A stretch of DNA of 64,000 nt, from NCBI RefSeq assembly GCF_030540825.1, contig NZ_JAUOEO010000001.1, forward strand, positions 4,787,001 through 4,851,000, written 5' to 3'. The position numbers and the translations under genes are program-made. Each line of letters starts with the position of its first letter. Within the stretch, counting starts at the first letter, position 1. The DNA comes from Flavivirga spongiicola. Its GTDB lineage: Bacteria; Bacteroidota; Bacteroidia; Flavobacteriales; Flavobacteriaceae. Of this stretch, positions 47,439 to 64,000 are shown in pieces. The notes beneath the pieces are model-generated. The model was not told where the DNA came from, ran no database searches, and saw only the letters and a program-made list of their open reading frames with translations.

Positions 47439-47466
47439 TTTATTTACTTAGTTCCATTTAAAAATT
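47439..47466 (+). repeat. Right copy of the direct repeat bordering the GC-rich island
   Basis: TTTATTTACTT, three differing bases, TCCATTTAAAAATT, matching 39553-39580 at 25 of 28 positions. This copy overlaps the last codons and stop of the porin gene (ending KFLNGTK), the usual kind of target of site-specific integration. No recombinase is found between the copies. Confidence 0.6.
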
Positions 47467-48724
47467 TAGGTTTTAGCACTAACATGACCCATCCCCAATT
47501 TTGTGTATCTGATGCTACACCTTCAGCAATACCTTTTAACTCATACATCCCATCAGATGGAAATAAGTGTGAATATCCAGCAACTAAAGCATAGCCTTTA
47601 AATTTCTTTTTGAATACTAAATCGATCTCTGTTCCTAACGACTTTTCTCCACTAGCTAACTCTTGCTCGCCACTAAAGTTTAGAGCTTTTACCATAAGAC
47701 TAGAAGTGTCATTTAATTTAAAGTTTGCACTCACGTGAACATCAAATAAACCGATTGAATTTGCGTGATTCCCCACATAGAAGTAGTCCATAAATCCATT
47801 AAATTTATGATTGGTACCATATAATGGGAAAAACGCTCCTGTTTCTCCAGGGTCACCATCATTTCCGCTAATTATTTCAACACCTGCTCCCAAACCAACT
47901 TTATCAGAAGCTTTATATGATACATCTAAACCTAAAAGATACGCTCCTTTTACATCTACATCTCCTTGTCTTTTGCCTGTTTGTACAAATGCATTAGCTG
48001 CTATACCAAAGCTTCCTTCTTTATAGTCTAAATGAGTTCCTAAAGTTTGGAGGTTACTTACGCCATCAGGGTCATTACTGGTATCAAAATCCTGGAAACC
48101 GTTGTTCATTAATAATAAGCTACCTGTAAAGTTTTCCCAAGCTTGTTTTAAGTATAAGTATTGCATGGTTTTATATGAAAAGAACCCCGTTGTATTATAT
48201 CCAGTTCCTGTTGATACGAAACCTGTTGGGTGCGAATAATCTTGATTGAATGCCAATCCAAAATCCAAAATAAACTTTTCTTTTTTGTATTTCAACAATG
48301 CAGCATCATGATTACGTCCTTGTTGTGCCCAATCTAATCCTCCCATAATTCTTTGGTCATCATAAGAGAGTACTTGACGTCCTAATTTAGTTGAAAACCC
48401 TTCTCCTAAATTAATTTCTGCCCAAGCTTGAAAAACTGCAAATGAATTATTCTGATCATAAGGTAAGATCTGTCTGTTTTCTCCCCAAACCATAATATCT
48501 TGCAAGCTCACAAACACTTTGTAAGTATCTGTTTTATATCCTGCATTTAAACGGACTCTCGTTGATATACCAAAACCTGCATCTGCATCATCAGCTATTA
48601 AGCTTCCAAATCCATTACGGTATTCTGTACGTGGCCTAAATTCGCCATCCAATGTAAACTGTGCTTGAATAAATTGTAAGCAACCTACCAACAATAATCC
48701 TAATATTACATACTGTTTTCTCAT
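47444..48724 (-). CDS. Outer-membrane porin-like beta-barrel (alginate-export-like)
   Basis: Outer-membrane channel of 426 residues with a signal peptide (MRKQYVILGLLLVGCLQFIQ, then AQFTLDGEF). Its barrel strands alternate polar and aromatic residues (FTLDGEFRPRTEYRNGFGSL, RVRLNAGYKTDTYKVFVSLQ, DKVGLGAGVEIISGNDG, GYALVAGYSHLF), and the layout resembles the AlgE/alginate-export-type porins. AT-rich composition shows it belongs to the nitrate/nitrite locus, not the GC-rich island. It is the last gene of that series, following the ResB/CcsA gene by 255 bp, with the palindromic operator at 48815 in between. It may let nitrate or nitrite through the outer membrane; this is inference. Confidence 0.75.
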   Translation of the reverse strand: MRKQYVILGLLLVGCLQFIQAQFTLDGEFRPRTEYRNGFGSLIADDADAGFGISTRVRLNAGYKTDTYKVFVSLQDIMVWGENRQILPYDQNNSFAVFQAWAEINLGEGFSTKLGRQVLSYDDQRIMGGLDWAQQGRNHDAALLKYKKEKFILDFGLAFNQDYSHPTGFVSTGTGYNTTGFFSYKTMQYLYLKQAWENFTGSLLLMNNGFQDFDTSNDPDGVSNLQTLGTHLDYKEGSFGIAANAFVQTGKRQGDVDVKGAYLLGLDVSYKASDKVGLGAGVEIISGNDGDPGETGAFFPLYGTNHKFNGFMDYFYVGNHANSIGLFDVHVSANFKLNDTSSLMVKALNFSGEQELASGEKSLGTEIDLVFKKKFKGYALVAGYSHLFPSDGMYELKGIAEGVASDTQNWGWVMLVLKPKFLNGTK

Positions 48725-48978: not shown

Positions 48979-51900
48979 CTAAACAGTTTGCCAACCTTTA
49001 TTTCTAATAGCAGCTATAACTGCTACAACTATCATAAATATAGCTAGTACATAGACAAACGTTGGAATAGGTAGGGGATCTCCTGCTGCATAACTATGCA
49101 AACCGGACAGATAATAATTAACCCCAAAAGAAGTCATTATAATGGACCAAAAAGCAAACATACTGGCTACGTTAAGTACATATCTGTTATTTAATTTTGG
49201 AATAAAACGTAAATGTAAAACAATGGCATACACAATAATACTAATGAGCGCCCAAGTCTCTTTAGGATCCCACGCCCAATAACGACCCCAGGATTCGTTT
49301 GCCCAAACACCACCTAAAAAAGTACCCACAGCTAAAACAAACAAACCAATAGTCATGGCTATTTCATTAATATATGTAAGCTCTTTAATTTTAATTTCTA
49401 TGATGTCCTTTGTCTTAAGCGTTTTAAAAATTGACAATAACAAAGCCATAAGTCCTAGAATAGCCGATAAGGCTAAAGGCGCATAACTACTTACGATGGT
49501 AGCTACATGAATTTTTAACCAATACGATTTTAATACAGGCATTAAATTGGTGATTTCCGGGCTTAGCCAATCTAAATAACTTACAAATAATAAAGCACCA
49601 GAAAACAAGGTGGATAAAGGAAGTGAAAAATCTGATTTTCTAAATGTAATCAACCCACACAACACTAATACCCAAGCTACAAAAATCAGCATTTCATAAC
49701 CATTACTCCATGGTGCGTGTTGTGCAACATACCAACGTAAAAGAATATTTCCTGTAAAACATAAAAAGGAAATTAATGCCAAAATAATGAATGTATTATT
49801 TAAAATTTCTATCCATTTTTTCTTTGAAAACATTTTAACAATAGCCAAAATTAACAAGACAAAACCAAGTGTAAAAAACACCTGAAACAACCAAAAATTA
49901 ATATTAGCCTTATTATACCATAATTCTGCCTCAATACGCTCTGGTGTTGGAATAACTTCGGCTCCAAGAACTTCCTGATACTTTTTTATATACAAGAGTT
50001 TTTCATGTGCCCTTCCATAGTTTTTTGTAGTTATATCTTTAAAATATGTTGAAACAATTGTTTTTGCAAATTGCGCATCTTCATCTGGAAAATCTCTAAA
50101 ATGATGCGTATAACTAAACCATGTGTTATTTGAGTCATTTTTATTTGGGAAAATTTTCAGGTAATTACCTATAAAAACATTGTAAAGGATATTAAAACGT
50201 TCATCTATTTTTAAAACCTCTTTATCAAACTCATTACGTTCTGAAGGCTTTTTTTTATTAGCTTCTTCCACTTGATTGGTTAAAAGATAATCTCCTTTCT
50301 TATCTAACAAATTAGTGAATGCTATTAAATTATTTTTTCCTTTGGGAACACTTTCTAACAAAGTTCCTGTTTTTGTAAAATCTGCTTTTATAATTGGGAC
50401 ACGTTGCCATATTTGGGGCAACATATGCATCGCTAAAAAAGTTTGATTGGCATCAAACACTATTTTTTTATGAGCTAGAGGATATGTGAATTTAGATTTT
50501 CTGGAAATTTTTCTAAGAAACTCCGATGCTAATGTATTTATAGGCTTTATACGTCCGTCTAAATCCTGAACTAAGAGTCTTCCAAAAAAAGCTGCATGAT
50601 CTTTATCTATTTCCTGATTTTCAATAGCTCTTTCAACGACTGTAGTTAATGAATCTGTTGGTGTTTGCGCTATTATACTGGTCAAACCAAAAAGGAGGAA
50701 ACATGCAGTTATAACAGTTTTTTTCTTTAGCTGTTTTAGTTTTTTATTGATGAATTTAAAACGTGATGTTTTTCCGAAAAGCGTAAAAAACATACCTAAC
50801 ATCATTAACAAATAGCCTAAATAAGTAATGAAAGTCCCTAATCTGTCGTGGTTTACAGAAAGTACTGTTCCTTTTTCATCAGTATCATAACTAGCCTGAA
50901 AAAAACGATATCCTTTATAATCCAGTACGTTGTTCATAAAAATTCTAAATGGTGTTTTTGTATCGTTATCTATAATAGTGACTTCACTGGCATAGGCTGA
51001 AGGACTTGATGACCCCGGATATCTTTCTAATTGAAAATCATTTAATTGGATAGAAAAAGGGGTTTGAATGGCACCTGCTCCATAGGATAGAATAACTCTC
51101 GTGTCATTGATTTCTATATCATGATGTGTTGGTAAAAAGCCTTCTCTGTATAAAATATTTACAGGTTGTTCTTCTCCGTTAACAGATACATTTACAATTA
51201 AAGCGTCATCTTTAGCTTTATCATTGTCTTTAAGTTTCTCTGAAACACTTTTTAGTTGAAATTTTCCTTTTTTATGATAAACTAATGGTACAAAAGAAAT
51301 ATCGCCATCTCTATACAATGTTCTTAAAGTAATAGCTTGTAAACTGTCTTTAACAACTTTTCCTGCTTGTTGTGACGACATAATAAAAAAATCCAGATCG
51401 TGTGGTGTTTTAATACTAAATACACCATCTTTTTCTAAAATATTAATAATATCTTTTTTATTGGAGTTAAACCCAATTTCATGTTGGTGTTCTCCAATTT
51501 TTTCAATTTCTCCTTTTTTAAGATATACAGTATTTCTACCATTACCAACTGTTACAACCATTTCTAAAAGCGGTTCACCTAAAGTTTCATCATGAACAAC
51601 CTCCGGAACAGCATCTGCAATAAAATTATTGTATGAAACAATAATTGGTTTATCGTTAAAGTTTGTTTTTAAAGTAAAATCATTATCGTGTATGGGTGAA
51701 AATGATAGCTTTTCTTTTATCGTTTTAGTATTTGTACCATCAGTTATTGTTGTGGTTAAAAAATTAGTATCTGAGATAATAATATTAGAAGATGTACCTT
51801 CTCTAATTCTCATAATTCCTCCGTAAGAAGCATATCTTGTAATAGCCGCTCCTAATATTATGATAATAAATGCAACATGAAATAATAAGGTCGCCCACTT

Positions 51901-52122
51901 TTCCTTTTGGAATAGCTTATATTTAAAAATATTAGCAAAAAAAGAAATAGCTAATCCCAGCAAAACGACTTCAAACCACCAGGCATCGTAAATAACTACC
52001 CATGCGGTTGCTGTACCAAAATCGTTTTCCACAAAAGTGGCACTAGCCATAGCAATTGCAAAAATTAAAAGCAATAACAATGCTAAACTTGAGGATGAAA
52101 AGAATTTATATAATTTTTGCAT
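48979..52122 (-). CDS. Fused ResB/CcsA cytochrome c maturation protein
   Basis: Inner-membrane protein of 1047 residues that joins the two System II cytochrome c assembly factors and carries heme across the membrane and ligates it to CxxCH motifs. The N-terminal third is ResB-like (FFSSSSLALLLLLIFAIAMA, three spans and a large periplasmic region); the C-terminal third is CcsA-like with the heme-handling tryptophan motif WGRYWAWDPKETWALISII and conserved His (VATIVSSYAPLAL, LHLRF). Fusion is known in Bacteroidota and epsilonproteobacteria, where NrfI sits next to nrfHA. It is 95 bp behind nrfA with a hairpin between, fitting its role in maturing the multiheme cytochromes here. Confidence 0.93.
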   Translation of the reverse strand: MQKLYKFFSSSSLALLLLLIFAIAMASATFVENDFGTATAWVVIYDAWWFEVVLLGLAISFFANIFKYKLFQKEKWATLLFHVAFIIIILGAAITRYASYGGIMRIREGTSSNIIISDTNFLTTTITDGTNTKTIKEKLSFSPIHDNDFTLKTNFNDKPIIVSYNNFIADAVPEVVHDETLGEPLLEMVVTVGNGRNTVYLKKGEIEKIGEHQHEIGFNSNKKDIINILEKDGVFSIKTPHDLDFFIMSSQQAGKVVKDSLQAITLRTLYRDGDISFVPLVYHKKGKFQLKSVSEKLKDNDKAKDDALIVNVSVNGEEQPVNILYREGFLPTHHDIEINDTRVILSYGAGAIQTPFSIQLNDFQLERYPGSSSPSAYASEVTIIDNDTKTPFRIFMNNVLDYKGYRFFQASYDTDEKGTVLSVNHDRLGTFITYLGYLLMMLGMFFTLFGKTSRFKFINKKLKQLKKKTVITACFLLFGLTSIIAQTPTDSLTTVVERAIENQEIDKDHAAFFGRLLVQDLDGRIKPINTLASEFLRKISRKSKFTYPLAHKKIVFDANQTFLAMHMLPQIWQRVPIIKADFTKTGTLLESVPKGKNNLIAFTNLLDKKGDYLLTNQVEEANKKKPSERNEFDKEVLKIDERFNILYNVFIGNYLKIFPNKNDSNNTWFSYTHHFRDFPDEDAQFAKTIVSTYFKDITTKNYGRAHEKLLYIKKYQEVLGAEVIPTPERIEAELWYNKANINFWLFQVFFTLGFVLLILAIVKMFSKKKWIEILNNTFIILALISFLCFTGNILLRWYVAQHAPWSNGYEMLIFVAWVLVLCGLITFRKSDFSLPLSTLFSGALLFVSYLDWLSPEITNLMPVLKSYWLKIHVATIVSSYAPLALSAILGLMALLLSIFKTLKTKDIIEIKIKELTYINEIAMTIGLFVLAVGTFLGGVWANESWGRYWAWDPKETWALISIIVYAIVLHLRFIPKLNNRYVLNVASMFAFWSIIMTSFGVNYYLSGLHSYAAGDPLPIPTFVYVLAIFMIVVAVIAAIRNKGWQTV

Positions 52123-52216: not shown

Positions 52217-53713
52217 TTATTTATTCATTGATACTTTTTTAGTACCGTAGTTGGCTTCACGGGCTTTTGCTTCTTCCAACCATTTCGGAACTAAGTTTTG
52301 TTTAAACGCTTCTTTATCTTGTTTCATTTTTTCAACATTTAACCCTATATATTCTTGTGCTTTTTCTTTTGTAGAAATGTCTGGCATCTCAACTGGTTTG
52401 TTATGTCCTAAATCTGACAACAAACGAGCTAATTTTAAACGACCTTCTTGAATAACAGTAAATGCACTTCCCATAACTCTTGCAGTTTCAACTGGTGAGT
52501 GGAATGATGCTCCGTGAGCAGCAGCAGAATAGTCCCAACGCCATTGTGCATGACGAATGTCCATCAAAATGTCTTTCATTTGCTCCTCAGTCGCTCCTAA
52601 GTCCCATGCTTTTTTAGCTTCTATATGAGCCTTCACTATAAAATCTTCTAATTTTAGTCTGTTTTCTGTTGCTTTACGTTGACGCTCATAAACATTTTGT
52701 TTTAATTTATCTGCATCTTCTCTATGGCACACTTGACATGCATTAGCAACATTGTTTAAAGGTGATTGGATGTGATGGTCTGTGAATTTTTGACCACCCT
52801 CACTCTTATAAGGCATGTGACAATCTGCACAAGATACGCCTCTGTCTGCATGCACACCTGTTAAATAAGTTTCGTACCCCGGATGTTGTGCCTTAAGCAT
52901 AGGCGTACGACTTAATTTATGAGTCCAGTCTTTAAAATTAATATCATCATAATATTTCTCCATAGCTTCAACAGACATCCCATTTTTCCATGGGAATTTT
53001 AAATAAGGAACACCTTCGTTACCTGGGGTTTTCTTATCAAAATAGTATTCAACATGACATTGAGCACAAACTAAAGAACGCATTTCTTGATGGGTTGCCT
53101 GATTAATATCTTTTCCCATTTCTTGAAAAGCTTCAACTAATGCTGGTCTTGAAATAGTCAGTTTCATAGTTTTAGAATCGTGACAATCTGCACAACCTAT
53201 TGGGTTCACTACTTCTGCCCCTTTATCTGCCCATTTTCCTGAATAAAATTCAGCAATGCCATTTTCGTTCATTAAACGAGGCACATCAGGACTTTTACAG
53301 GTCCAACATGTAGCTGGCATAGGGCCGTCCCCTTTTCCTTTAGGCCCTCCAGTTCTTAGGGAGTTTGTTAAGTCTTCAATGGCATATTGATGACCTCTAC
53401 CCTGATTGTAATCTTTTGCAAATCCATATCCAGCAAAAAGAACTACTAAACGTGAATCTTCGTGCAATACATCTCTCATAGCAGACCCACCTTGTTGTGA
53501 TGCGAAATCTGTTTCTGCCGTTTGCAAAAACGATTGATATTCTGCTGGGAAATTTTTACCCCATTCTTCATTTCGTGGTTCGTTTTCGCTTATTTCAACT
53601 TTTGGAACATATTGATATTTGGCTTCTTTTTTTCTGTTAACAATACTAGATGCTAACAATCCTAGTAGAAATACTACTACTGCGGTAACAATAAATAATA
53701 CTTTATTTTTCAT
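52217..53713 (-). CDS. nrfA: Ammonia-forming cytochrome c nitrite reductase NrfA
   Basis: Six-electron reduction of nitrite to ammonium in the periplasm. From Met at 53713 (MKNKVLFIVTAVVVFLLGLL) it has 498 residues; the longer frame to 53755 would overlap nrfH. Five heme sites are seen: the catalytic CWTCK with Lys ligand at 136-140, and CADCH (174-178), CAQCH (216-220), CADCH (295-299) and CQVCH (326-330), with the GVHADRGVSC and QSPLN calcium/His region. The N-terminus is an uncleaved or cleaved anchor. It lies 11 bp after nrfH, which passes it electrons from menaquinol. Confidence 0.97.
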   Translation of the reverse strand: MKNKVLFIVTAVVVFLLGLLASSIVNRKKEAKYQYVPKVEISENEPRNEEWGKNFPAEYQSFLQTAETDFASQQGGSAMRDVLHEDSRLVVLFAGYGFAKDYNQGRGHQYAIEDLTNSLRTGGPKGKGDGPMPATCWTCKSPDVPRLMNENGIAEFYSGKWADKGAEVVNPIGCADCHDSKTMKLTISRPALVEAFQEMGKDINQATHQEMRSLVCAQCHVEYYFDKKTPGNEGVPYLKFPWKNGMSVEAMEKYYDDINFKDWTHKLSRTPMLKAQHPGYETYLTGVHADRGVSCADCHMPYKSEGGQKFTDHHIQSPLNNVANACQVCHREDADKLKQNVYERQRKATENRLKLEDFIVKAHIEAKKAWDLGATEEQMKDILMDIRHAQWRWDYSAAAHGASFHSPVETARVMGSAFTVIQEGRLKLARLLSDLGHNKPVEMPDISTKEKAQEYIGLNVEKMKQDKEAFKQNLVPKWLEEAKAREANYGTKKVSMNK

Positions 53714-53724
53714 TTTTGTTATAA

Positions 53725-54324
53725 TTATTTGTCTGCTATTTGTTTTTCTAACCAATCCGGAATAACGGTTTCTTCTGTGTCTGTTGGAATTGGCGCTATA
53801 TTATTTCTTATAGTCGATATTCCATGTACTGTCCCGTGAGGTACTTCTTGGTGACAACTCCAACATTTTCTATCTGTTCTGTTTTTAGCATGATCATCTA
53901 TCCAACCATCGTATTTGGTTTGAGTCACCTGCTGTACATGGCAACGAATACAATTGTTTTGTACAACTTCCTGCGATTCTTCACGCATAAACATCACTTC
54001 TGGTTCCGCTCTTAGAGTAAAAACAGAAGCATGGAATAAACCATCTTTCGCCTTAAAATAATACTTATTAAATACATTATTATGAGGCACATGACAATCG
54101 TTACAGTTTGCCCATTCCCTATGCGAGCTATGCATCCAACTATTATAAACTGGTGTCATAACATGACAGTTTACACAAGCTAGTGGATTGTCTGACATAT
54201 AAGAAACCACCTCAGCTTCCTTTGCCATAAAAAGACCTAGTCCGGTAATGACTGCAATTAAAAAAATCGCGGTGGGTCTCCATCTCGATTTTTTGTCCGG
54301 TAATATGTTTTTTTTAAGATTCAC
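53725..54324 (-). CDS. nrfH: Tetraheme quinol dehydrogenase NrfH
   Basis: Membrane-anchored NapC/NirT-type cytochrome of 199 residues that oxidises menaquinol and feeds NrfA. One N-terminal span (TAIFLIAVITGLGLFMAK) is followed by four heme sites: CVNCH, CNDCH, CIRCH and CWSCH. NrfH-type length and the partner gene nrfA just downstream (11 bp) secure the assignment. The start is GTG at 54322-54324. A palindromic operator lies 142-156 bp upstream (54466-54480). Confidence 0.95.
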   Translation of the reverse strand: MNLKKNILPDKKSRWRPTAIFLIAVITGLGLFMAKEAEVVSYMSDNPLACVNCHVMTPVYNSWMHSSHREWANCNDCHVPHNNVFNKYYFKAKDGLFHASVFTLRAEPEVMFMREESQEVVQNNCIRCHVQQVTQTKYDGWIDDHAKNRTDRKCWSCHQEVPHGTVHGISTIRNNIAPIPTDTEETVIPDWLEKQIADK

Positions 54325-54522: not shown

Positions 54523-55752
54523 CTAATTTACGTTTTTCTTTTTATATCTTAATTTCCCTAATTCTATACCAATAGCAGTTTTTGCAAGTATTGTAAATAC
54601 AAAGGCTCCAAGTGCCCAGATCCCCAGTGTAACACCTATTTCAATACCGGTAGGTGTATATTCTGCTATTTTTCCATAAGGTCCTGGAATAAAACCGGGA
54701 ACAATAAGTCCGAAACCTTTTTCTATCCAAATGGCAGCAAACAAAAGGATACAGACAAAAAATAATATTTTGAAGTTATTACGTAATTTATGGAATGTTA
54801 GAATAACGGTGGCTACCACATTCATAGAAATAGAAGTCCAAATCCATGGTAAAAGTGCTGTTTTACCTTCCAGTCCAAAAAACAAGTAATAAGCGCTTTC
54901 ACTATGGTGGGTAGGCGCATAAAACTCTTTAAATAATTCTGAAATTAGCATGATTAAATTTATCTGAGCTGCCACAGTAACCACCATAGCTATTTTCTTT
55001 ATGGTTTTATCTTCAATTTTAAACGCGGTAAACGTTCTTATAATAGCTAATACCAATATAATTAATGCAGGGCCTGCTGCAAACGCAGAAGCTAAAAAAC
55101 GAGGTCCTAACAAAGCATTATTCCAAAATGGTCTGGCTTGTAAGCCTTGATATAAAAATGCTGTAACTAAATGGATCCCTACTGCCCAAAAAACAGATAA
55201 TAAAGCTCCGGGAATATATACTTTTGGATTAGGTGTTTTACCTTGATAACGTCTAAATAGAATATAAAACGGAATACTAATATTTAAAAATAGATATCCA
55301 TTTAAAACCAAAACATCCCACGTTAACATGGAGTTTGGAAAATTAAATACTCCAATCCCAGGTATCATATGCCATAAAACCGAAGGGCCTCCCATATCTG
55401 CAATTACAAAAGCTAAACACATAATAAGTGCCGCTACGGCTAATCCTTCACCAATAAGCACGGCTTGTTTAAAATCTATATCCTTTAAAACATAAGTTGG
55501 CATCACAAGCATCACAGCAGCAGCGGCAACTCCAACTAAAAAAGTAAAATTAGAAATATACAAACCCCAACTTACTCTATCCGTCATACCGGTGACACTA
55601 AGTCCTTGTTCTAATTGAATAGAATAACAATACATTCCAACCAACATGACAAAGGTTAAAAGTGCCATCCATAAATGATATTTTTTAGAACCATGCGTTA
55701 TAGTATCTAAACTGTCCTTAACTAAACTTCCAAAAACTTTTAATCGTTTCAT
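54523..55752 (-). CDS. nrfD: NrfD/PsrC-family membrane quinol dehydrogenase subunit
   Basis: Inner-membrane protein of 409 residues with about ten spans, the type that binds quinol and passes electrons to a periplasmic iron-sulfur partner. Spans include YHLWMALLTFVMLVGMYCYS, VSWGLYISNFTFLVGVAAAA, GEGLAVAALIMCLAFVIADM, FWAVGIHLVTAFLYQGLQA, and LGIWALGAFVFTILAKT. It has no heme motifs. It follows the NrfC-like gene by 161 bp and precedes nrfH by 198 bp. In this cluster it probably replaces NapC/NapH as the entry point of electrons to NapAB, or forms a menaquinol-linked module for both enzymes; inference from context. Confidence 0.88.
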   Translation of the reverse strand: MKRLKVFGSLVKDSLDTITHGSKKYHLWMALLTFVMLVGMYCYSIQLEQGLSVTGMTDRVSWGLYISNFTFLVGVAAAAVMLVMPTYVLKDIDFKQAVLIGEGLAVAALIMCLAFVIADMGGPSVLWHMIPGIGVFNFPNSMLTWDVLVLNGYLFLNISIPFYILFRRYQGKTPNPKVYIPGALLSVFWAVGIHLVTAFLYQGLQARPFWNNALLGPRFLASAFAAGPALIILVLAIIRTFTAFKIEDKTIKKIAMVVTVAAQINLIMLISELFKEFYAPTHHSESAYYLFFGLEGKTALLPWIWTSISMNVVATVILTFHKLRNNFKILFFVCILLFAAIWIEKGFGLIVPGFIPGPYGKIAEYTPTGIEIGVTLGIWALGAFVFTILAKTAIGIELGKLRYKKKNVN

Positions 55753-55913
55753 CTGTTTCTTTTTATTTTATTTTTTGGTCAGATGTAATTCGCTCATAGA
55801 CATATCGTTTGGTACAAAATATTTGTCGTAGCTCATTTCATATAAACTTTATATTATAACTCTTAGTTTTTATATTTTGGGCGCTTGCTTGCCAACGGCA
55901 GGTCTAACACAGG

Positions 55914-57041
55914 CTAATCCATAAAATACCAGAACTTAGGTTCTGTTCCTAAATCTTCTTTTAATCTAAATACTTTCTTATTTTCTAAAACCCATCTAAT
56001 GGTACTATTTGGGTCTAATAAGTTTCCAAAAATTCTGGCACCTGTAGGGCAAGCTTCAACACAAGCTGGATTTTTACCAGCTCTGGATCGTTGCACACAG
56101 AATGTACATTTCTCCATAACACCTTTCTTACGCATACGGTTTCCTAAATAATGCTGATTCTTGTTAATCTCAGCCTCCGGAACTTCGGGCTTACTCCAAT
56201 TAAAGCGTCTACCATCGTAAGGACAAGCTGCCATACAATATCTACAACCTACACACCAATCGTAATCTACAACCACCAAGCCATCATCTTCTCTCCAGGT
56301 TGCTTGCACTGGACATACCTCTACACATGGTGGATTATCACAATGAAAACACTGTGTTCCCATGTAAAAATGACCTTCTGCAGGCACTTCATGATAATAA
56401 TTATCATCAGCTTCATTAAAATTGAAACCTTTACCATCCTTCATTTCATGAATTCTTATGTATTGCATCTGTGAGTTTCGGTCTTGATTATTTTCCTCTA
56501 CACAAGCATTTACACAATCCATATATCCCTGGCACTTTGAAATATTGAAAGCGTATCCAAACAACACATCTTCTTCAGCATTTTTGGAAGACATGCTTAT
56601 ATTTTTACCGGTTCTTAATTGGTATGATCTTACCAACCTATCGACAGTTGCTCCTTTTTCTTCATCGGTCATCAATTTATAGTTTCCTTTAAATTGCTCC
56701 TCCCAATCTATTTGTGATTTTTCTTTAGTTTCATCGCCACTAATTACGCTACAGGATGTGCTCACCGCACCTGCTCCAATTAACAAACTTGCTGTTAACT
56801 TCTTAAAAGCAGTTCGTCTATCCATTTTTACATCAAAGACTTGCTCAAATCCATCTTTGGTTCTTTCTTCTCCAATAGAAGCATTTATTGCAGCTGTAGC
56901 AAATGCTTCATCAGTCATCTGATGAGAATCAGATGAGGAACCACAACCTCCAGAGGTTTTTCCACAACCACAAGAACCGGAAGATTCTTTCTCCTTCCTA
57001 CCAAGATTTAATGAAAACCATTTTTTGTTATTATTACTCAT
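55914..57041 (-). CDS. NrfC-like 4Fe-4S dicluster protein with atypical N-terminus
   Basis: Iron-sulfur protein of 375 residues, partner of the NrfD-like subunit. Four ferredoxin-type cysteine sets are present: CQGYMDCVNACVE, CFHCDNPPCVEVCP, CVGCRYCMAACP and CTFCVQRSRAGKNPACVEACP. The N-terminus is unusual: a Gly/Cys-rich segment (SCGCGKTSGGC, Cys at about 24, 26, 33) and then, at about 74-100, DRRTAFKKLTASLLIGAGAV, a Tat-like motif placed internally. Similar internal Tat motifs are known from ActB-like proteins of Bacteroidota. It follows the tetraheme lipoprotein gene by 34 bp. Confidence 0.9.
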   Translation of the reverse strand: MSNNNKKWFSLNLGRKEKESSGSCGCGKTSGGCGSSSDSHQMTDEAFATAAINASIGEERTKDGFEQVFDVKMDRRTAFKKLTASLLIGAGAVSTSCSVISGDETKEKSQIDWEEQFKGNYKLMTDEEKGATVDRLVRSYQLRTGKNISMSSKNAEEDVLFGYAFNISKCQGYMDCVNACVEENNQDRNSQMQYIRIHEMKDGKGFNFNEADDNYYHEVPAEGHFYMGTQCFHCDNPPCVEVCPVQATWREDDGLVVVDYDWCVGCRYCMAACPYDGRRFNWSKPEVPEAEINKNQHYLGNRMRKKGVMEKCTFCVQRSRAGKNPACVEACPTGARIFGNLLDPNSTIRWVLENKKVFRLKEDLGTEPKFWYFMD

Positions 57042-57075
57042 ACCTAAATATTATTAATTCCATAAATGGTGTTAG

Positions 57076-57684
57076 TTATTCTCTTTCTTTTACTTTTTGG
57101 GTATTAAAACGTGCTGGCCATCTCGATTCAAAATGAGGTTTGTGTGGGTCATGACAGTTTACACAAGTCATAGACGCTCTTGGTGGTGCCCAACCTCCAA
57201 TACGTTTACCATGCGCACCACCTTTCCAATCTTCAAATTGTTTGGTATGGCATTGATTACACAGATTGTAACTGTTATTAAAATCAATAGTATTTCCTGT
57301 CAGACTTCTTAAATTATCCATATTATCTGGGTTATGACAGGTCACACAATTCATGGTGTTCGCATTGGCATGATCTATTTTAATATCCCAGTGGGCTTTT
57401 TTAAGGTCCTTACTCTTCATCTGTGCCAAAGGTTTCGAGTGACACTCCGTACAAGCGTAAGACTTAATTTGACTTTTTCGTTCCGGAATTAAAAAGGTAT
57501 GTTCTCCCTCAGTAATCTCAATTGTTTCTATATCACCTATATGTTCTTCAGAAGATATTGAAGTCCCATGATAGTTTTTGCTTTCAGCTTCAATCTTATC
57601 AGTAATACTATGATATTCATCTTCATGATGTTTACAAGAAAAAAATGCAAGTAAGAAAAAAGAAAAACAAACTATTTTACTCAT
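57076..57684 (-). CDS. Tetraheme cytochrome c lipoprotein
   Basis: Periplasmic, lipid-anchored cytochrome of 202 residues. The chosen start at 57684 gives a lipoprotein signal (MSKIVCFSFFLLAFFSCKHH); an upstream ATG at 57705 would overlap the NapB-like gene. Heme sites are CTECH, CVTCH, CNQCH and CVNCH, with extra His residues (AHWDIKIDHANA, GAHGKRIGGW) that can be distal ligands. It lies between the NapB-like protein and the NrfC-like protein, the position of an electron carrier from the NrfCD-like quinol dehydrogenase to NapB. The family is not securely recognised. Confidence 0.85.
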   Translation of the reverse strand: MSKIVCFSFFLLAFFSCKHHEDEYHSITDKIEAESKNYHGTSISSEEHIGDIETIEITEGEHTFLIPERKSQIKSYACTECHSKPLAQMKSKDLKKAHWDIKIDHANANTMNCVTCHNPDNMDNLRSLTGNTIDFNNSYNLCNQCHTKQFEDWKGGAHGKRIGGWAPPRASMTCVNCHDPHKPHFESRWPARFNTQKVKERE

Positions 57685-57694
57685 AATATTTATA

Positions 57695-58387
57695 TTACTC
57701 TCCATTACCAGCTCTTTTAAATGTTCCTACCTCAGTCATCTCTTTATTATTAGGCACGTGGCATTGTCTACAATTAACACGCTCGGGATGTGAAACTCTT
57801 ATTTCCTTAGGTGCACTAGGCCCTGCATGACAGGATAAACAGTTCTCTCGCAATTGAATTTGATGTGGAATCATTGGAGGGCTTCCAAGCAACGCATTAT
57901 TAACTCCAGCTTTTGGAGCAATGACACTTGCATAATTTCCGCCTTTAAACAAAGTTTGGGTGTTTTGTTCTACATGACATTGCTTACAATTTACCAATTC
58001 CGGGTGTGGTGTTACAGGTGCATACGCTTGAAATTTCTCAGTAAATCCACCATTTTCATGGCATTTTAAGCAACTTTTCCCGCCCATATTTTGCTGTTCA
58101 TTTACAGGATGTGGAATACTGGGAGGCGCACCGTGGTAGGCCCTATTTTTATAATATGTTGTGAGTGACCTTTGATGATTCTTATCTATAGGCATATTTT
58201 TATAATCTAAAGCATGTTTAGATCGTTTAAAAACACCTGATTCGGAAGGAATTGCAGAGATATACTTGCTATCTTCAATTGGGATATAGGCTTCCTCCAA
58301 TCCTATTTGATAACTGTAATTCCAAATAGTAATAAATGCTATAAAAAGAATTACAAATAACGATATGATACCTAGTCTTTTTTTCAT
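57695..58387 (-). CDS. napB: NapB-like cytochrome with duplicated diheme unit (four hemes)
   Basis: Electron-transfer subunit of the periplasmic nitrate reductase, 230 residues instead of about 150 for NapB. After one N-terminal anchor (LGIISLFVILFIAFITIW) the sequence contains two copies of the NapB half-pattern: GAPPSIPH (86-93), CLKCH (106-110), TPHPELVNCKQCH (hemes 134-138) and then GSPPMIPH (168-175), CLSCH (183-187), SHPERVNCRQCH (206-210). Each copy is like the NapB heme pair. It starts two bases after the napA stop, strongly suggesting translational coupling with napA. The duplication may extend reach between NapA and the quinol dehydrogenase. Confidence 0.85.
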   Translation of the reverse strand: MKKRLGIISLFVILFIAFITIWNYSYQIGLEEAYIPIEDSKYISAIPSESGVFKRSKHALDYKNMPIDKNHQRSLTTYYKNRAYHGAPPSIPHPVNEQQNMGGKSCLKCHENGGFTEKFQAYAPVTPHPELVNCKQCHVEQNTQTLFKGGNYASVIAPKAGVNNALLGSPPMIPHQIQLRENCLSCHAGPSAPKEIRVSHPERVNCRQCHVPNNKEMTEVGTFKRAGNGE

Positions 58388-58389
58388 TG

Positions 58390-60717
58390 CTATGCTTTTT
58401 CAACTTTAACAGCGCATTTTTTATAGTCGGGCTCTTTAGAAATAGGACAAAAAGCATCTAATGTTACATCATTAATCAACATGTTTTCGTCAAAGAAAGG
58501 CACAAAAACCTGTCCTTTAGTAGGTAAGCCCCTTTCATTTATTGAAGCTGGCAATATACATGAGCCTCTTCTTGAACTTATTTTTATCTTCTCACCATTC
58601 CTAATCCCCAGATTTTTAGCGTCATCCGGATGAAACTCTACATAAGCCGATGGCATCGCTTTGTGTAATACCGGAATTCTACGAGTCATAGAACCTGTAT
58701 GCCAATGCTCTATAACACGTCCTGTATTTAACCAAAAAGGGTATTCCGCATCGGGAACCTCTGGTGCTGGTTCATAAGGGCGTTGCCAAATAACAGCTTT
58801 ACCGTCTGGTTTTCCATAAAAATGAAAGTCTTTATCATTACTACATGCAGGATCATATTTTGCATTAAAACGCCATTGTGTAGATTTTCCGTCTACATAA
58901 GGCCAAATAGCCCCAGATTCTTTTTTAAGAACTTCTAAAGGTGCCATGCCGTGTTTTGCCCCTTCATGAAACTGTCTGTATTCGTTATATATTTCTTCTA
59001 CGTGATTTTCTTCACTATATGGGAACAAATCACCATACCCCATTCGTTTTGCAATTTCAATAGTCATCCATGCATCGGGAGTTGTTTCTCCTGGTCCTTC
59101 CACCATTTTATCCCAATGCTGTGTTCTACGCTCTGAGTTTCCGTACAAGCCACTTTTTTCTATATGCCAGGACGCAGGTAAAATAACATCAGCAACATCA
59201 GATGTTGGTGTTGGAAACACATCAGAAACCACAACAAAGCAAGATTCTTTTTCCATGCCTGGACGGTAACGACTTGTTTTTGGTAATGACACTAAAGGGT
59301 TAGTAACTTGTGTCCAGATAAATTTAATATCACCACGATCTACTGCCCTAAACATTTCTGTGGCATGGTAGGTAGGCTTTGCTGGAATCCTTTCATAAGG
59401 CACTTTCCATATTTTAGCTGCCAAACGTCTGTGTTTTTCATTCATTACCACACCTTTTGGTAATTTATGTGTAAACGTACCTACCTCTCTGGCTGTACCG
59501 CAAGCAGAAGGCTGACCTGTTAATGAAAATGGACCATTTCCAGGCTGTGAAATTTTACCAGTTAATAAGTGAATGTTATACACTAAGTTGTTAATCCAGG
59601 TTCCTCTTGTATGCTGGTTCATTCCCATACACCAATAAGAAACTACTTTTTTATTAGGATCTCCATAAATAGCAGCTAAATATTTAATATCTTTTACAGA
59701 TACTTTAGAGTATTTTGCTACTTTTTCTGGAGTATAATCTTCTAAGAATTTTTTATAAGCTTCAAAATCAATTTTGGTTGGCTTATCTTTAAACTTATAA
59801 TTATCTTCTAAACCATAACCCATATTTGTTAAGCCTTTATTGAAATTCACATGGTTTTCTACAAATGCTTTATTTACCCAACCATTATTAATAATTTCAT
59901 AACAAATGGCATTGGCAACAGCTAAATCTGTTTGGGGCTCGAATAAAATTGATTTATTAGATGCTGTACTGGAACGTGTTGTTCTCGTAGCAAAATCTAT
60001 AATTTTTGCGCCTCTCCTATTTTTTTGTTCCAACATTCTTGAGAATAATACGGGATGCATTTCTGCCATATTATTTCCCCAGGTAATAAAATAATCTGCA
60101 TGGTCAATATCTTCATAACACCCCATCGGTTCATCAGCACCAAAAGTGGTTAAAAATCCTGCCACTGCACTTGCCATACATAAACGGGCATTACAATCTA
60201 AATTATTAGTTCCAATGGCACCCTTCATTAATTTTGAAGCTACATAACCCTCAGGAATTGTAGATTGTCCTGACGTATACATCGCGACTGAATCTTTACC
60301 ATGTTTTTCAATGGTCTCTTTCATTTTATTAGCAACAATGTCTAAGGCCTCATTAATAGGTGTTTGAACGTATCTTCCATTTTTCTTAACCAAAGCATGT
60401 GTTAGTCTATCTTTAGCTTGCGTACACATGATTTGGTGATAGCCTTTTACACAAAGTAATCCTTTGTTGACTGAGGAATTCGGATCTCCTTTTACGGCTA
60501 CTGCTTTTCCTTGGTCAACTCCTACCAAGATGCCACATCCTACGCCACAAAAACGACAAGGTCCTTTTTTCCAATCCAAATTAGCTCCTTTTGGTAGATT
60601 GGCATTTTGTTCTGAAGCAAATATAATTCCTGGGAACATTGATGCTGCAGCTGTCATTGCCGCAGCTGCAGCCATTTTTTTTATAAAATTTCTTCTGGTT
60701 GTTAAAGAGTTTTGCAT
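58390..60717 (-). CDS. napA: Periplasmic nitrate reductase catalytic subunit NapA
   Basis: Reduces nitrate to nitrite in the periplasm with Mo-bis-MGD and one [4Fe-4S] cluster. The 775 residues begin with a Tat signal (TTRRNFIKKMAAAAAMTA). The cluster is bound by CRFCGVGC (54, 57, 61) and GLLCVKGY (89). The Mo ligand is the Cys in NNLDCNARLCMASAVAGF (about 180), as in NapA and not NarG. SYWCMGMNQHTRGTWINNLV and the C-terminal CILPASINERGLPTKGQVFV follow the MopB fold. It is somewhat shorter than the E. coli protein (about 830). It lies two bases before the NapB-like gene and two bases after napD. Confidence 0.96.
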   Translation of the reverse strand: MQNSLTTRRNFIKKMAAAAAMTAAASMFPGIIFASEQNANLPKGANLDWKKGPCRFCGVGCGILVGVDQGKAVAVKGDPNSSVNKGLLCVKGYHQIMCTQAKDRLTHALVKKNGRYVQTPINEALDIVANKMKETIEKHGKDSVAMYTSGQSTIPEGYVASKLMKGAIGTNNLDCNARLCMASAVAGFLTTFGADEPMGCYEDIDHADYFITWGNNMAEMHPVLFSRMLEQKNRRGAKIIDFATRTTRSSTASNKSILFEPQTDLAVANAICYEIINNGWVNKAFVENHVNFNKGLTNMGYGLEDNYKFKDKPTKIDFEAYKKFLEDYTPEKVAKYSKVSVKDIKYLAAIYGDPNKKVVSYWCMGMNQHTRGTWINNLVYNIHLLTGKISQPGNGPFSLTGQPSACGTAREVGTFTHKLPKGVVMNEKHRRLAAKIWKVPYERIPAKPTYHATEMFRAVDRGDIKFIWTQVTNPLVSLPKTSRYRPGMEKESCFVVVSDVFPTPTSDVADVILPASWHIEKSGLYGNSERRTQHWDKMVEGPGETTPDAWMTIEIAKRMGYGDLFPYSEENHVEEIYNEYRQFHEGAKHGMAPLEVLKKESGAIWPYVDGKSTQWRFNAKYDPACSNDKDFHFYGKPDGKAVIWQRPYEPAPEVPDAEYPFWLNTGRVIEHWHTGSMTRRIPVLHKAMPSAYVEFHPDDAKNLGIRNGEKIKISSRRGSCILPASINERGLPTKGQVFVPFFDENMLINDVTLDAFCPISKEPDYKKCAVKVEKA

Positions 60718-60719
60718 AT

Positions 60720-60959
60720 TTAATTGTTTTTGGGTGTATTAAAGCCAGAAACCATTGCTAGCAATTTTAAACTCTTAATAGCTTCAATAGATTCTTTTAT
60801 TTTTTCGTCGTCAATTTTACTTTCTGTATCAGTTACCACAATAAGTAAGTCTTTGTTTTCAGCAGGAATCACTTCGCAATGATCTATCTTAGATAAGGCT
60901 TCAATAAGCGCTTCTTTCTTACCTTCTTGAGGGTGAGCTAAATAACTTTTTATAGGCAT
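60720..60959 (-). CDS. napD: NapD chaperone for NapA
   Basis: Small cytoplasmic protein of 79 residues that binds the Tat signal peptide of NapA and delays export until the cofactor is inserted. The ferredoxin-like fold is suggested by SYLAHPQEGKKEALIEALSK, IDHCEVIPAENKDLLIVVTD and IESIEAIKSLKLLAMVSGF-like strands, matching NapD in length and position. It is the first gene of the nap series and ends two bases before the napA start. Three copies of the palindromic operator lie within 200 bp upstream. Confidence 0.9.
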   Translation of the reverse strand: MPIKSYLAHPQEGKKEALIEALSKIDHCEVIPAENKDLLIVVTDTESKIDDEKIKESIEAIKSLKLLAMVSGFNTPKNN

Positions 60960-61018: not shown

Positions 61019-61033
61019 CTGACAAATATCATA
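61019..61033. promoter_or_regulatory. Palindromic operator variant, nearest to napD
   Basis: CTGACAAATATCATA, similar to ATGATAAATATCATG with two or three changes. It is 60 bp before the napD start, where a promoter-proximal regulator would be expected. Confidence 0.4.
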
Positions 61034-61098: not shown

Positions 61099-61113
61099 AT
61101 GATAAATGCCATG
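61099..61113. promoter_or_regulatory. Palindromic operator ATGATAAATGCCATG upstream of napD
   Basis: ATGATAAATGCCATG differs from the consensus ATGATAAATATCATG at two positions. It is about 140 bp before the napD ATG. Confidence 0.5.
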
Positions 61114-61146: not shown

Positions 61147-61161
61147 CTGATAAATACCATG
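61147..61161. promoter_or_regulatory. Palindromic operator CTGATAAATACCATG upstream of napD
   Basis: CTGATAAATACCATG is nearly identical to the site 48 bp away and shares the GATAAAT core. Spacing of 48 bp between the two (between four and five helical turns) allows cooperative binding on nearly the same face; this is inference. Confidence 0.5.
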
Positions 61162-61324: not shown

Positions 61325-63220
61325 TTAATAATCATTTGGTAAAATACAATCGTTACTTATATTTTTTAGCACCGCATTTAATCCAAATTCTAAAGATTGA
61401 CTCATCACTTTAGAATTATCTTTGTGGCACTGCAAACAAGCTCCTACCAAAAGGAGTCTTTTTTGCTCCTTTAGGGTGAAAGGCCTAAAATCTGATCTAG
61501 TAGAGTTCACAACATTTTTATTAACGTCTTTCAAAAAAGGAATCCAGGCATCTTCTGGTAGGTTATCATGATTATTCAATGCATATTCAGGAGTAAAAAC
61601 CCATGTTCCTATATTATTTTTAATATCATAAACTAAATCACCGCTTCCATAGCCTAAAGATACAGCACTAGAATGACAGGATTTACAATCTCGCACATTT
61701 TTTGTAGTTGTATGCGGAGAATTTGGAGCATACAGCCTATGGAAAGACACATCTTCACCAATTTTTTTATTTGAGTAACTTCCCTCATCAATGGTTAAAA
61801 TCATCCCAGGTATTGCTGGCTCAACAGTTCTTCCATCGTCATTCTCACGCACCCCCATTGCTGGTTGTGATGATGAAAATTCAGCAACATATTCTTTCCA
61901 TTGGCCTTTCACATCCATTTTATCCAATAAATCAAAACCTTTAGGCTCATCTTTATCAAACTGGTTATGGCAACCAATACATTTTGAGGTCCAAGATGAA
62001 TGACAACTAGCACAACTCACATTTTTATGAGCATGATCTCTTGAACACACTACAGATTGTTTTCTTAAAGTGTGTCTTGTTCCATCTTTTTTACCTATTA
62101 AAAATGCTTTTCCCAAAGAATCAACATAAGTATTTACTAAAGGATGATTATCTTTCTTAGCTACTAAAATTTGTTTATCAGTATGCTTATAATCACGATG
62201 TAAAAACACCAATCGACTTTCAGTGTCTAAAGAGTCGTAAGGAATGGTATTCGGAGTTTCTTTATAATGACAATCTACACACTGTATTTTTACCGCTTGT
62301 TCAGCATGCTGATATTGTTTTCCATCCCCCATAACTTCATGAGACGAATGACAATCTATACAAAGCAACCCTTTTGTATGATGTACATCTTCTTCAAGAT
62401 ATTTATAAACTCTTTTATCTTCTAAAACTATATGATTGCTTTTATCTTTGATTTCATCCTCATTTAACAAGGTTTCTTGCAATCCCATATAATTTGTTGA
62501 AATTCTACTTGAACGACTGTGACAACCAAAGCAATGTGTATCATTAACAAAAATATCGGTAGATGGATGAAAACTTGGCAGTATTTTTTTATTTGAAGCT
62601 AAATATTTATTTAACTCCTCTTTTGCTTCTTGTGAATAATTTAAATGACATGCATTACAGCCTCCTCCTCTACTTAATTGATTAATTTCTCCATAGGTAG
62701 TCTTTTTAGCTCCTAAATGACAGTTTGCACATAAATCTCTTAAGTGTTTATCTGCAGCCGAATTTTTTATATCCTTTATATGGTAATGATAATTTTGATG
62801 ATTTGCCTCACCAAAAATAAACTTATCTACAGCTACTATACCACTATTAGTAGTCATCAAAGAGGTATTAATCTTATCTAATTCATTGGGATGACATTTA
62901 CCACAAGTTTCTTTCGCATCAGATAAATTACCAGGAATTAAAATCATGCCTCTATGTGCTTCGTCTTTATTAAATGATAATATATTTCCTAAATGACAAC
63001 TTGCACAACCTATAAGCTCTGGATTATGGTAATTAGAATACCCTTTGGTATTTTGATGGCATTGAAGACATGACTCTGAGTTTGAAACGTTAATGTTAGT
63101 TGACCCATTTTCATAACTAATATTTGCATTAAAAGAATGTTTATTTCTAACATAGAATAATACTGCAAATAGTATTAAAACTAATGCTAAAATTCCATTC
63201 AAATATTTTTTATTTTCCAT
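61325..63220 (-). CDS. Twelve-heme (dodecaheme) cytochrome c, membrane-anchored
   Basis: Multiheme electron carrier or reductase of 631 residues. One N-terminal anchor (LNGILALVLILFAVLFYV) precedes a long periplasmic part with twelve CxxCH sites: CLQCH, CASCH, CGKCH, CANCH, CNACH, CFGCH, CIDCH, CVDCH, CASCH, CIGCH, CKSCH and CLQCH. A further CSRDH lacks the second Cys. No known enzyme signature was recognised, so it may be a reductase for an inorganic sulfur compound or a partner of the molybdoenzyme that diverges from it. The shared 172-bp intergenic region has two perfect palindromes. Composition is AT-rich. It is on the nap strand, ending 365 bp before napD. Confidence 0.9.
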   Translation of the reverse strand: MENKKYLNGILALVLILFAVLFYVRNKHSFNANISYENGSTNINVSNSESCLQCHQNTKGYSNYHNPELIGCASCHLGNILSFNKDEAHRGMILIPGNLSDAKETCGKCHPNELDKINTSLMTTNSGIVAVDKFIFGEANHQNYHYHIKDIKNSAADKHLRDLCANCHLGAKKTTYGEINQLSRGGGCNACHLNYSQEAKEELNKYLASNKKILPSFHPSTDIFVNDTHCFGCHSRSSRISTNYMGLQETLLNEDEIKDKSNHIVLEDKRVYKYLEEDVHHTKGLLCIDCHSSHEVMGDGKQYQHAEQAVKIQCVDCHYKETPNTIPYDSLDTESRLVFLHRDYKHTDKQILVAKKDNHPLVNTYVDSLGKAFLIGKKDGTRHTLRKQSVVCSRDHAHKNVSCASCHSSWTSKCIGCHNQFDKDEPKGFDLLDKMDVKGQWKEYVAEFSSSQPAMGVRENDDGRTVEPAIPGMILTIDEGSYSNKKIGEDVSFHRLYAPNSPHTTTKNVRDCKSCHSSAVSLGYGSGDLVYDIKNNIGTWVFTPEYALNNHDNLPEDAWIPFLKDVNKNVVNSTRSDFRPFTLKEQKRLLLVGACLQCHKDNSKVMSQSLEFGLNAVLKNISNDCILPNDY

Positions 63221-63392: not shown

Positions 63393-64000
63393 ATGGCTAC
63401 TTCAAGAAGAAAATTTATAAAAATTTCAGCCTTAGGTTTTGGAGGTTTGGCAACCGCTTCAAGTGCATTTCAACTGTTTGGTTCTAATTCATATTTAGAT
63501 GCTGCATTTAAACAAAATATTTCGAATAAGTTTAAAAAATCTGCAACCTATTGTGAAGTCTGTTTTTGGAAATGTGCTGCCTGGGCTTTTAGTAATGAAG
63601 AAGGAAAAATCAAAAAGATTATTGGTAATAATGAAGATCCACATTGTTATGGCAGACTTTGCCCAAGGGGTACTGGAGGCGTAGGCATGTACTCTGATGA
63701 AGATAGATTAAAAACACCGTTAATCAGAACTACTATTAATGGTGAAGAAACTTTTAGAGAAGCCAGTTGGGAAGAAGCACTAGACTTAATTGCATCAAAA
63801 TTTAAGCATATAAAAGATACATATGGCGCAGAATCTTTTGCTTTACTTAAGCATGGTTCCCCTGGTAGTCATTTAGAACATTTATTCAAAGCTTACGGAT
63901 CTGATACTATTGCAGAACCTGCTTACGCTCAATGTCGTGGCCCAAGAGAAGCTGGGTTCAGTTTAACATTCGGTTCTTGGGTTGGTTCACCTGAACCTAC
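63393..64000 (+). CDS. PsrA/PhsA-like molybdopterin oxidoreductase, cut by window edge
   Basis: Start of a Tat-exported Mo/W-bis-PGD enzyme; 202 residues are visible. The Tat signal is MATSRRKFIKISALGFGGLA. The [4Fe-4S] ligands are CEVCFWKC (54, 57, 61) and CPRG (90), the pattern of the polysulfide/thiosulfate/tetrathionate reductase branch rather than NapA. YAQCRGPREAGF holds a Cys in the position of the Mo ligand. Substrate unknown. Divergent from the 12-heme cytochrome; its iron-sulfur and membrane subunits would lie beyond the window. Confidence 0.85.
   Translation, partial: MATSRRKFIKISALGFGGLATASSAFQLFGSNSYLDAAFKQNISNKFKKSATYCEVCFWKCAAWAFSNEEGKIKKIIGNNEDPHCYGRLCPRGTGGVGMYSDEDRLKTPLIRTTINGEETFREASWEEALDLIASKFKHIKDTYGAESFALLKHGSPGSHLEHLFKAYGSDTIAEPAYAQCRGPREAGFSLTFGSWVGSPEP

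Follow-up and report, generated by a model that had tools for sequence, protein, structure and literature searches.

Six adjacent genes in a 64,000-nucleotide stretch of the Flavivirga spongiicola genome (termed here the window) very probably encode one respiratory unit: a Bacteroidota-type periplasmic nitrate reductase (Nap) whose catalytic subunit, NapA, is fed by an NrfCD-like quinol-oxidising module. The cassette lies on the minus strand, from position 60959 down to 54523, in the order napD, napA, tetraheme napB, tetraheme lipoprotein, nrfC-like and nrfD-like; among its first four genes neighbours either overlap or lie two bases apart, 34 bp precede nrfC and 161 bp precede nrfD. An earlier analysis of the letters alone (the sequence-only reading) had proposed such an electron route here, and every gene that it claimed for this interval, as well as the nrfH and nrfA genes that it placed downstream, was found on the minus strand, the interval coinciding exactly with the cassette. 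If this assignment is correct, it adds a further quinol route to Nap besides NapC/CymA and NapGH, and it would account for nitrate respiration where a genome scores negative for both NapC and NapGH.

Association of NrfCD with NapA

Two samples of related loci were compared. The first was selected by NapB: relatives of this protein were confirmed on 272 contig stretches of the GTDB species set, and the best 80 of these, together with three NapA-selected loci, gave 83 loci; from the 80 genomes a subset of 50 was picked by hand under no strict rule, mostly NZ_ strain records (loci L086 and L091, for instance, being omitted). The second ignored NrfCD and NapB and was selected by NapA only, from 397 genomes of Flavobacteriaceae, the family to which the window belongs, a phylum-wide NapA sample having proved poor (4 of 395). 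NapA was found at E <= 1e-100 in 68 of the 397 genomes, in 67 of them over the model cut-off, and the 68 NapA neighbourhoods, most of them about 19.5 kb long, were all compared.

The order NapA-NapB-lipoprotein-NrfC-NrfD is unbroken in all 83 loci of the first sample, and under a strict string test NapD precedes it in 79 (loci L054, L063 and L068 have no NapD match; in L027 napA is in two pieces). Of the 68 neighbourhoods selected by NapA, 65 carry the complete order and two carry it with a broken napA, while the remaining contig ends just after napA. The comparison of gene order in related genomes that the sequence-only reading had suggested thus finds the cassette in every one of the 83 related loci and in all but one of the 68 NapA neighbourhoods, that one being truncated, so that the association is not due to chance. 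For no gene in the 68 neighbourhoods was an E. coli NapC, NapG, NapH or NapF homologue ever the best match above 40 bits.

The nitrite reductase genes behave differently. That the NrfCD-like module stands between two reductases is true of the window, but it is not a rule: nrfHA lies near the cassette in only 15 of 83 and 5 of 68 loci. In the 50-genome subset the family model PF03264 (NapC/NirT/NrfH) is matched over cut-off in 31 genomes, and full-length NrfA occurs in those same 31; NapH was found at E <= 1e-20 in none of the 50. Within the second sample PF03264 is matched over cut-off in 36 of the 68 genomes, by a full-length protein in 35 and by a fragment in the 36th (genome G594); of the eight partial matches, four are weak ones to the cassette's lipoprotein, and the others apart from that fragment are short matches of other kinds. 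All 35 full-length proteins lie within 1.5 kb of NrfA, and the genomes that encode them are exactly the 35 in which NrfA was found at E <= 1e-50. The other 33 of the 68 lack both NrfA and a full-length PF03264 protein, and NapH was found in none of the 68 in a genome-wide search. Of the 61 genomes of highest quality (completeness 90% or more, contamination 5% or less), 31 have NrfA. Because the cassette accompanies NapA in 67 of 68 genomes, 33 of the 68 having neither NrfA nor full-length NrfH, NrfCD tracks NapA and is indifferent to NrfA. The proposal that the module serves Nap is borne out to this extent: NrfCD stays with Nap in the 33 genomes that lack both.

Two single cases are informative. 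In G594 (locus L164) what follows the intact cassette is an nrfH fragment of 101 residues, carrying two heme motifs, and a CcsBA remnant, and no NrfA match was found genome-wide; NrfHA has decayed there, with NrfCD retained. On a plasmid of Flammeovirga kamogawensis (Cytophagales) the six genes stand alone between unrelated genes, and both cytochromes have four CXXCH motifs; the listed relatives of its lipoprotein include proteins of Aureispira anguillae and of metagenome-assembled genomes (MAGs) named Salibacteraceae, Cyclobacteriaceae and Cytophagales (sequence matches whose gene order was not seen). The cassette therefore occurs outside the window's family.

Absence of NapC and NapGH

The genome assembly is 100% complete, with 5.90 Mb in 4 contigs. 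PF03264 has a single match in it, namely the window's NrfH (53725-54324, minus strand; TIGR03153, 156.5 bits over 134.2; four CXXCH motifs), which together with NrfA (52217-53755, minus strand; NF008339, 664 over 595; four CXXCH motifs and CWTCK) occupies 52217-54324, downstream of the cassette; both are neighbours that are inconstant among the loci. No protein of the genome passes the NapH cut-off, the best of four weak matches scoring 42.8 bits against 213. As controls, E. coli passes the PF03264 cut-off, 12 of 14 genomes, including E. coli, match NapH at E 1e-3, and one control passes the NapH cut-off. The sequence-only reading had reported NapC and NapGH missing from the window and had named a copy elsewhere in the genome as a finding that would speak against it; such a copy was sought with the PF03264 and NapH models and none was found, and by family models the absence extends to the whole genome.

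NrfD-like and NrfC-like subunits

The nrfD-like gene (54523-55752, minus strand), which lies beside that of its NrfC partner, encodes an integral membrane protein whose name in the sequence-only reading holds at the level of the superfamily (Pfam NrfD, PF03916, 118 bits over 25.8) but not of the E. coli type (TIGR03148, 19.0 bits, far under 347.6). Its closest curated model is DsrP (NF045798, 420.6 over 350), although calling it "DsrP, sulfate reduction complex" is probably misleading. The predicted model has ten membrane-length helices (mean predicted local distance difference test score, pLDDT, 71), its best solved fold match is ActC, and relative to E. coli NrfD there are extra N- and C-terminal helices (in a nine-sequence tree, which shows helix gain rather than ancestry). 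A crude hydropathy count carries no weight here, giving ten segments for the window's NrfD and nine for that of Flammeovirga, but only eight for ActC and seven for HybB; the number of helices is taken from the model.

Residues E102, H194, E272 and E344 align with columns of the half-channel proposed for ActC (its residues being listed in the part of PMC8076601 available), and Lys345 occupies the gate position. These five columns are kept in the 68 sequences except for single gaps and one E344D, and at the first four both E. coli NrfD and the PsrC of this genome carry different residues; the half-channel match is partial, since the ActC Asp253 column is Leu200 here. The protein is modelled as a ten-helix quinol dehydrogenase subunit of the DsrP/ActC class with conserved quinol-site acids. 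Another molybdopterin enzyme paired with this membrane class was seen on a plasmid of Halobiforma lacisalsi (locus L104), where a haloarchaeal molybdopterin oxidoreductase occurs with DsrO and with an NrfD that has the D119, S141, D146 and H194 columns in common.

The nrfC-like gene (55914-57041, minus strand) encodes an iron-sulfur protein that narrowly misses the DsrO cut-off (NF045797, 196.9 against 200). Of the 16 cysteines expected to bind clusters 15 are present and, apart from two masked residues, kept in the 68 sequences; the 16th, in the first cluster motif, is replaced in all 68 by Tyr173, the corresponding column holding Cys in NrfC of E. coli, in HybA, in this genome's PsrB and in a haloarchaeal DsrO. 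By the NarH naming (FS1 to FS4) the affected cluster is presumably FS1, at the membrane-distal end; a [3Fe-4S] cluster may occupy this site, which is the end where electrons would exit to heme. Ahead of the RR of its twin-arginine translocation (Tat)-like signal the protein has an unusually long N-terminal stretch. The first 75 residues include a Cys-rich segment (CGCGKTSGGCGS), kept in most but not all relatives, which might bind a metal or a cluster while the protein is still on the cytoplasmic side.

NrfD/NrfC-type pairs are quinone-interacting modules, and on the strength of this family membership the present pair is taken to be a quinol-oxidising module.

NapA, NapD and the two cytochromes

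NapA (58390-60717, minus strand; 775 residues, Tat-like signal) scores 955.1 bits against NCBIfam NF010055, over the cut-off of 904, and 907.2 against TIGR01706, under the cut-off of 930.55. In an alignment with E. coli NapA 380 of 766 aligned residues are identical (49.6%), the Fe-S and Mo-Cys regions align, and one 43-residue loop of the E. coli protein is lacking. The preceding gene (60720-60959, minus strand; 79 residues) encodes a NapD-like chaperone, whose identity rests on a Pfam NapD match under cut-off (25.2 bits, E 1.7e-5; cut-off 28), on position and on alignment with E. coli NapD; it has no NCBIfam match. By gene content--NapA over the model cut-off, with NapD and NapB encoded alongside--the cassette would be classed as a Nap. 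In loci L182 and L155 (genomes G700 and G525) napA is split or has in-frame stops, and the remaining cassette genes are in place.

The NapB gene (57695-58387, minus strand) bears out the claim of a four-heme NapB, having four CXXCH motifs. The whole protein scores 41.6 against Pfam NapB (cut-off 25.1), and its halves, scanned separately, score 27.5 and 25.8, both over that cut-off; by alignment each half repeats PPxIPH..CxxCH..H..CxxCH, in the same order as E. coli NapB. A search of solved structures with the single sequence gave no match, and the profile gave weak matches to 1ogy_B (E 0.00095) and 3ml1_B (E 0.0081), the NapB proteins of R. sphaeroides and C. necator. Eight histidines are kept across 68 sequences, the sole exception being an N at H210, and four CXXCH motifs are present in 66 of 67 copies (three in the other). 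Because invariant residues (W22, S25, Y26, G29, E31, E32 and Y34 in 15 aligned sequences) span the N-terminal hydrophobic stretch and continue beyond it, this stretch appears to be a retained membrane anchor. The protein is thus best described, from its sequence, as a tandem pair of NapB-like diheme modules behind a putative membrane anchor.

The next gene (57076-57705, minus strand) encodes the second tetraheme c-type cytochrome, likewise with the four CXXCH motifs claimed for it, and with a lipoprotein-like signal (..FFSC) whose Cys24 is kept in 67 of 68 sequences. Its conserved non-motif histidines (105, 112, 165 and 188) are candidate axial ligands. Among 67 copies 64 have four CXXCH motifs, one has three and two have five; these last are in loci L143 and L181 (genomes G475 and G689). 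An AlphaFold model built from 53 sequences reached a pLDDT of 71.5 and a predicted template modelling score of 0.57.

Proposed electron route and its alternatives

In the proposed scheme, NapD would mature NapA, which Tat would export. The ten-helix NrfD-like subunit would oxidise menaquinol close to the outer face of the inner membrane and pass electrons to the chain of iron-sulfur clusters in the NrfC-like subunit on the periplasmic side; from there they would exit through the tetraheme lipoprotein, the membrane-anchored tetraheme NapB or both, and would reach NapA through its [4Fe-4S] cluster, where nitrate is reduced to nitrite. NrfHA, if encoded, would form a separate route from nitrite to ammonium. 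Export and membrane anchoring of the components are suggested by their sequences, and the order NrfC to lipoprotein to NapB by gene order; the direction of electron flow, the formation of a physical complex and any proton coupling are likewise inferred.

Several points weigh against this scheme. No biochemical or genetic data were found for any cassette member. The genome also encodes alternative complex III (ActC-like gene at C1:2709065-2710237), a complex in principle able to reduce cytochromes of the periplasm. The lipoprotein's predicted structure has no usable fold match (best E 2.3), and the protein could be on the outer membrane, in which case NrfC may pass electrons straight to NapB, leaving the lipoprotein as a side branch. 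The family models could overlook a NapC or NapH that has diverged strongly. Finally, the two samples overlap and their genomes are related, which makes the counts non-independent, and the whole-genome searches covered the window's phylum and family only (Bacteroidota).

Alternative complex III might itself feed Nap through cytochromes, leaving NrfCD as an accessory or as a module working towards quinone. Besides the ActC-like protein encoded in this genome, Rieske/cytochrome b or alternative complex III routes to multiheme cytochromes have been proposed in Caldithrix (PMC5317091, in the part available), and Qrc illustrates that such a module can operate towards quinone (available part of PMC6303296). 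Yet this leaves unexplained why NrfCD is retained with NapA in all 67 neighbourhoods that are not truncated. Moreover, with an acceptor of such high potential as nitrate, electrons run downhill in the direction of quinol oxidation, and this explanation is improbable.

NrfH could instead supply both reductases through the tetraheme lipoprotein, in the manner of CymA, with some other role for NrfCD. It is the sole NapC-family protein found in the genome, and CymA supplies several reductases in Shewanella (according to the available part of PMC12285233). Full-length NrfH, however, is missing from 33 of the 68 NapA genomes, though the cassette is kept in 67 of the 68 neighbourhoods, which makes a shared NrfH very unlikely.

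It is still harder to believe that NrfCD serves NrfA and lies beside nap by coincidence. NrfCD donates to NrfB and NrfA in E. coli (PMC12285233, same part), and nrfHA does lie downstream in the window; but neighbourhoods in the 33 genomes without NrfA and full-length NrfH retain NrfCD, NrfA when present has its own quinol dehydrogenase, NrfH, adjacent to it in 35 of 35 cases, and the membrane subunit scores far too low for an NrfD of E. coli type (19 bits; cut-off 347.6). No more credible is that the pair is half of a DsrMKJOP complex in sulfur metabolism, as NCBI naming implies: the NCBIfam DsrP cut-off is passed, the Flammeovirga gene is annotated DsrP and a Psr/rhodanese sulfur cluster adjoins the cassette in the window, but no DsrM, DsrK or DsrJ is named among the cassette genes (the cassette only; no genome-wide search was made), and PsrA accompanies the cassette in no more than 2 of 83 loci and, besides the window itself, in 2 of 68, the linkage being to napA.

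Periplasmic nitrate reduction is usually considered non-coupling. Since the NrfD-like subunit keeps several of the ActC half-channel columns and the Lys345 gate residue, a DsrP/ActC-type subunit might couple menaquinol oxidation to proton translocation and so generate proton motive force, which is conceivable but on balance doubtful. If true, the cassette may alter the cell's energy gain from nitrate; and the energy yield of Nap becomes directly testable, the membrane subunit being of a class argued to move protons.

Regulation and neighbouring genes

Of 80 loci, 52 carry the palindrome TGRYA-N2-TRYCA upstream of napD, and 43 of its 60 sites fall between -80 and -61; in random windows drawn from these loci the pattern turned up in 2.2 of 80 on average and in 8 of 80 at most. 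Three copies lie in the window, one of them (TGATATTTGTCA) at 61020-61031 on the minus strand and the others at 61100-61111 and 61148-61159. By its TGA-N6-TCA core it is Crp/Fnr-like and a candidate operator; the perfect FNR form, TTGAT-N4-ATCAA, occurs in 0 of 80 loci. Because the palindrome recurs upstream of napD, it supports the cassette being one regulated unit that starts there.

Beyond nrfHA lies a fused CcsBA/ResBC cytochrome c synthase (48979-52122, minus strand; Pfam ResB and Cytochrom_C_asm), which follows nrfHA in all 15 nrfHA-bearing loci of the 83 and is probably dedicated to the CXXCK heme of NrfA. At 47444-48724 the window encodes an outer-membrane barrel of the Alginate_exp family, possibly a nitrate/nitrite porin, homologues of which lie close to the cassette in 32 loci of 83 and in 21 of 68. 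Just upstream of napD is a twelve-heme cytochrome (61325-63220; ExtM-like, 235 bits where the cut-off is 800), whose presence near the cassette is confined to loci having the sulfur cluster. The latter, adjoining the cassette (window 63393-64000 onward; L002 1393-5118), is a divergent, PsrABC-like gene cluster for a sulfur/polysulfide reductase, and after it come two sulfur-transport proteins, rhodanese proteins, a Porin_O_P protein, a Crp/Fnr regulator and molybdenum-cofactor genes.

Comparison with known systems

A 2025 review calls the replacement of NapC in NrfH-containing nitrate respirers "less understood" and gives as the current hypothesis that another protein of the nap operon oxidises quinol (available part of PMC12285233); the cassette would be a concrete answer to this question for a large marine group. 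Feeders of Nap described in the accessible portions of PMC12780646, PMC5276818, PMC4911364 and PMC5317091 are NapC, NapGH and NapM with NapGH, once with Rieske/cytochrome b genes. No description of the cassette was recognised among the open-access papers listed, subscription papers being mostly outside the scope, and "Nap" does not occur in the main text of a 2021 survey of NrfD-like subunits (PMC8076601). One argument for novelty, that ten-helix NrfD never has a partner with molybdenum bis(pyranopterin guanine dinucleotide) (Mo-bisPGD) (Duarte 2018, PMC6303296, as partly available), was dropped because the available part of PMC8076601 lists ten-helix ArrC, and likewise SreC, with such a partner.

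NrfD-type genes near nap genes have been reported in other contexts. Planctomycetota and KSB1 MAGs have NrfD-ActD clusters near nap or nar genes, which, unlike the cassette, include actD and other genes and for which the authors propose a role with nitrite reductase or in respiratory electron transfer; in two MAGs such a cluster is downstream of nap genes, with a different role proposed, and the six-gene order is not described in the sections of that article available (PMC10732223). In Thermosulfurimonas and Dissulfuribacter an NrfD-type locus lies within an 11-gene cluster with napMADGH, the role proposed being nitrite reduction or sulfur metabolism (PMC5276818, in part).

With NapC-dependent Nap (E. 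coli napFDAGHBC) the cassette has in common NapA, NapD and a NapB-like cytochrome. It differs in having no NapC, NapG, NapH or NapF, in a NapB that is doubled and apparently membrane-anchored, and in NrfCD-type quinol oxidation; a Nap-dedicated NapC, which defines that class (Paracoccus NapEDABC being a further member), was not found, NrfH being the only candidate in the genome. NapC-independence is shared with the NapGH-dependent Nap of Wolinella, Thermosulfurimonas and Caldithrix, and a tetraheme donor with the NapM systems of Desulfovibrio, Thermosulfurimonas and Caldithrix (NapC-independent NapGH systems and NapM are described in the available parts of PMC12780646, PMC5317091 and PMC5276818), but in the cassette the tetraheme protein is a lipoprotein, NapB is present, and NrfCD stands in NapGH's place.

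DsrJOP of the DsrMKJOP complex supplies the curated models closest to NrfCD (DsrP over and DsrO just under cut-off), and DsrP1 has a Lys on the gate column, as does the cassette's NrfD (PMC8076601, part available); the cassette differs in having no DsrMK among its genes, a four-heme cytochrome with a lipoprotein signal rather than the three-heme DsrJ, and NapA as partner. From alternative complex III, whose ActC is the best solved fold for NrfD and whose half-channel columns carry E102, H194, E272 and E344, it differs in that its genes include no ActA, ActB, ActD, ActE or ActF, in that the terminal acceptor is a nitrate reductase, and in Leu200 replacing Asp253. E. coli NrfBCD follows the same logic--quinol to NrfD, to NrfC, to a multiheme cytochrome, to the reductase--but in the cassette that reductase is NapA rather than NrfA, NrfD is of the ten-helix DsrP/ActC class, and NrfC has Tyr173.

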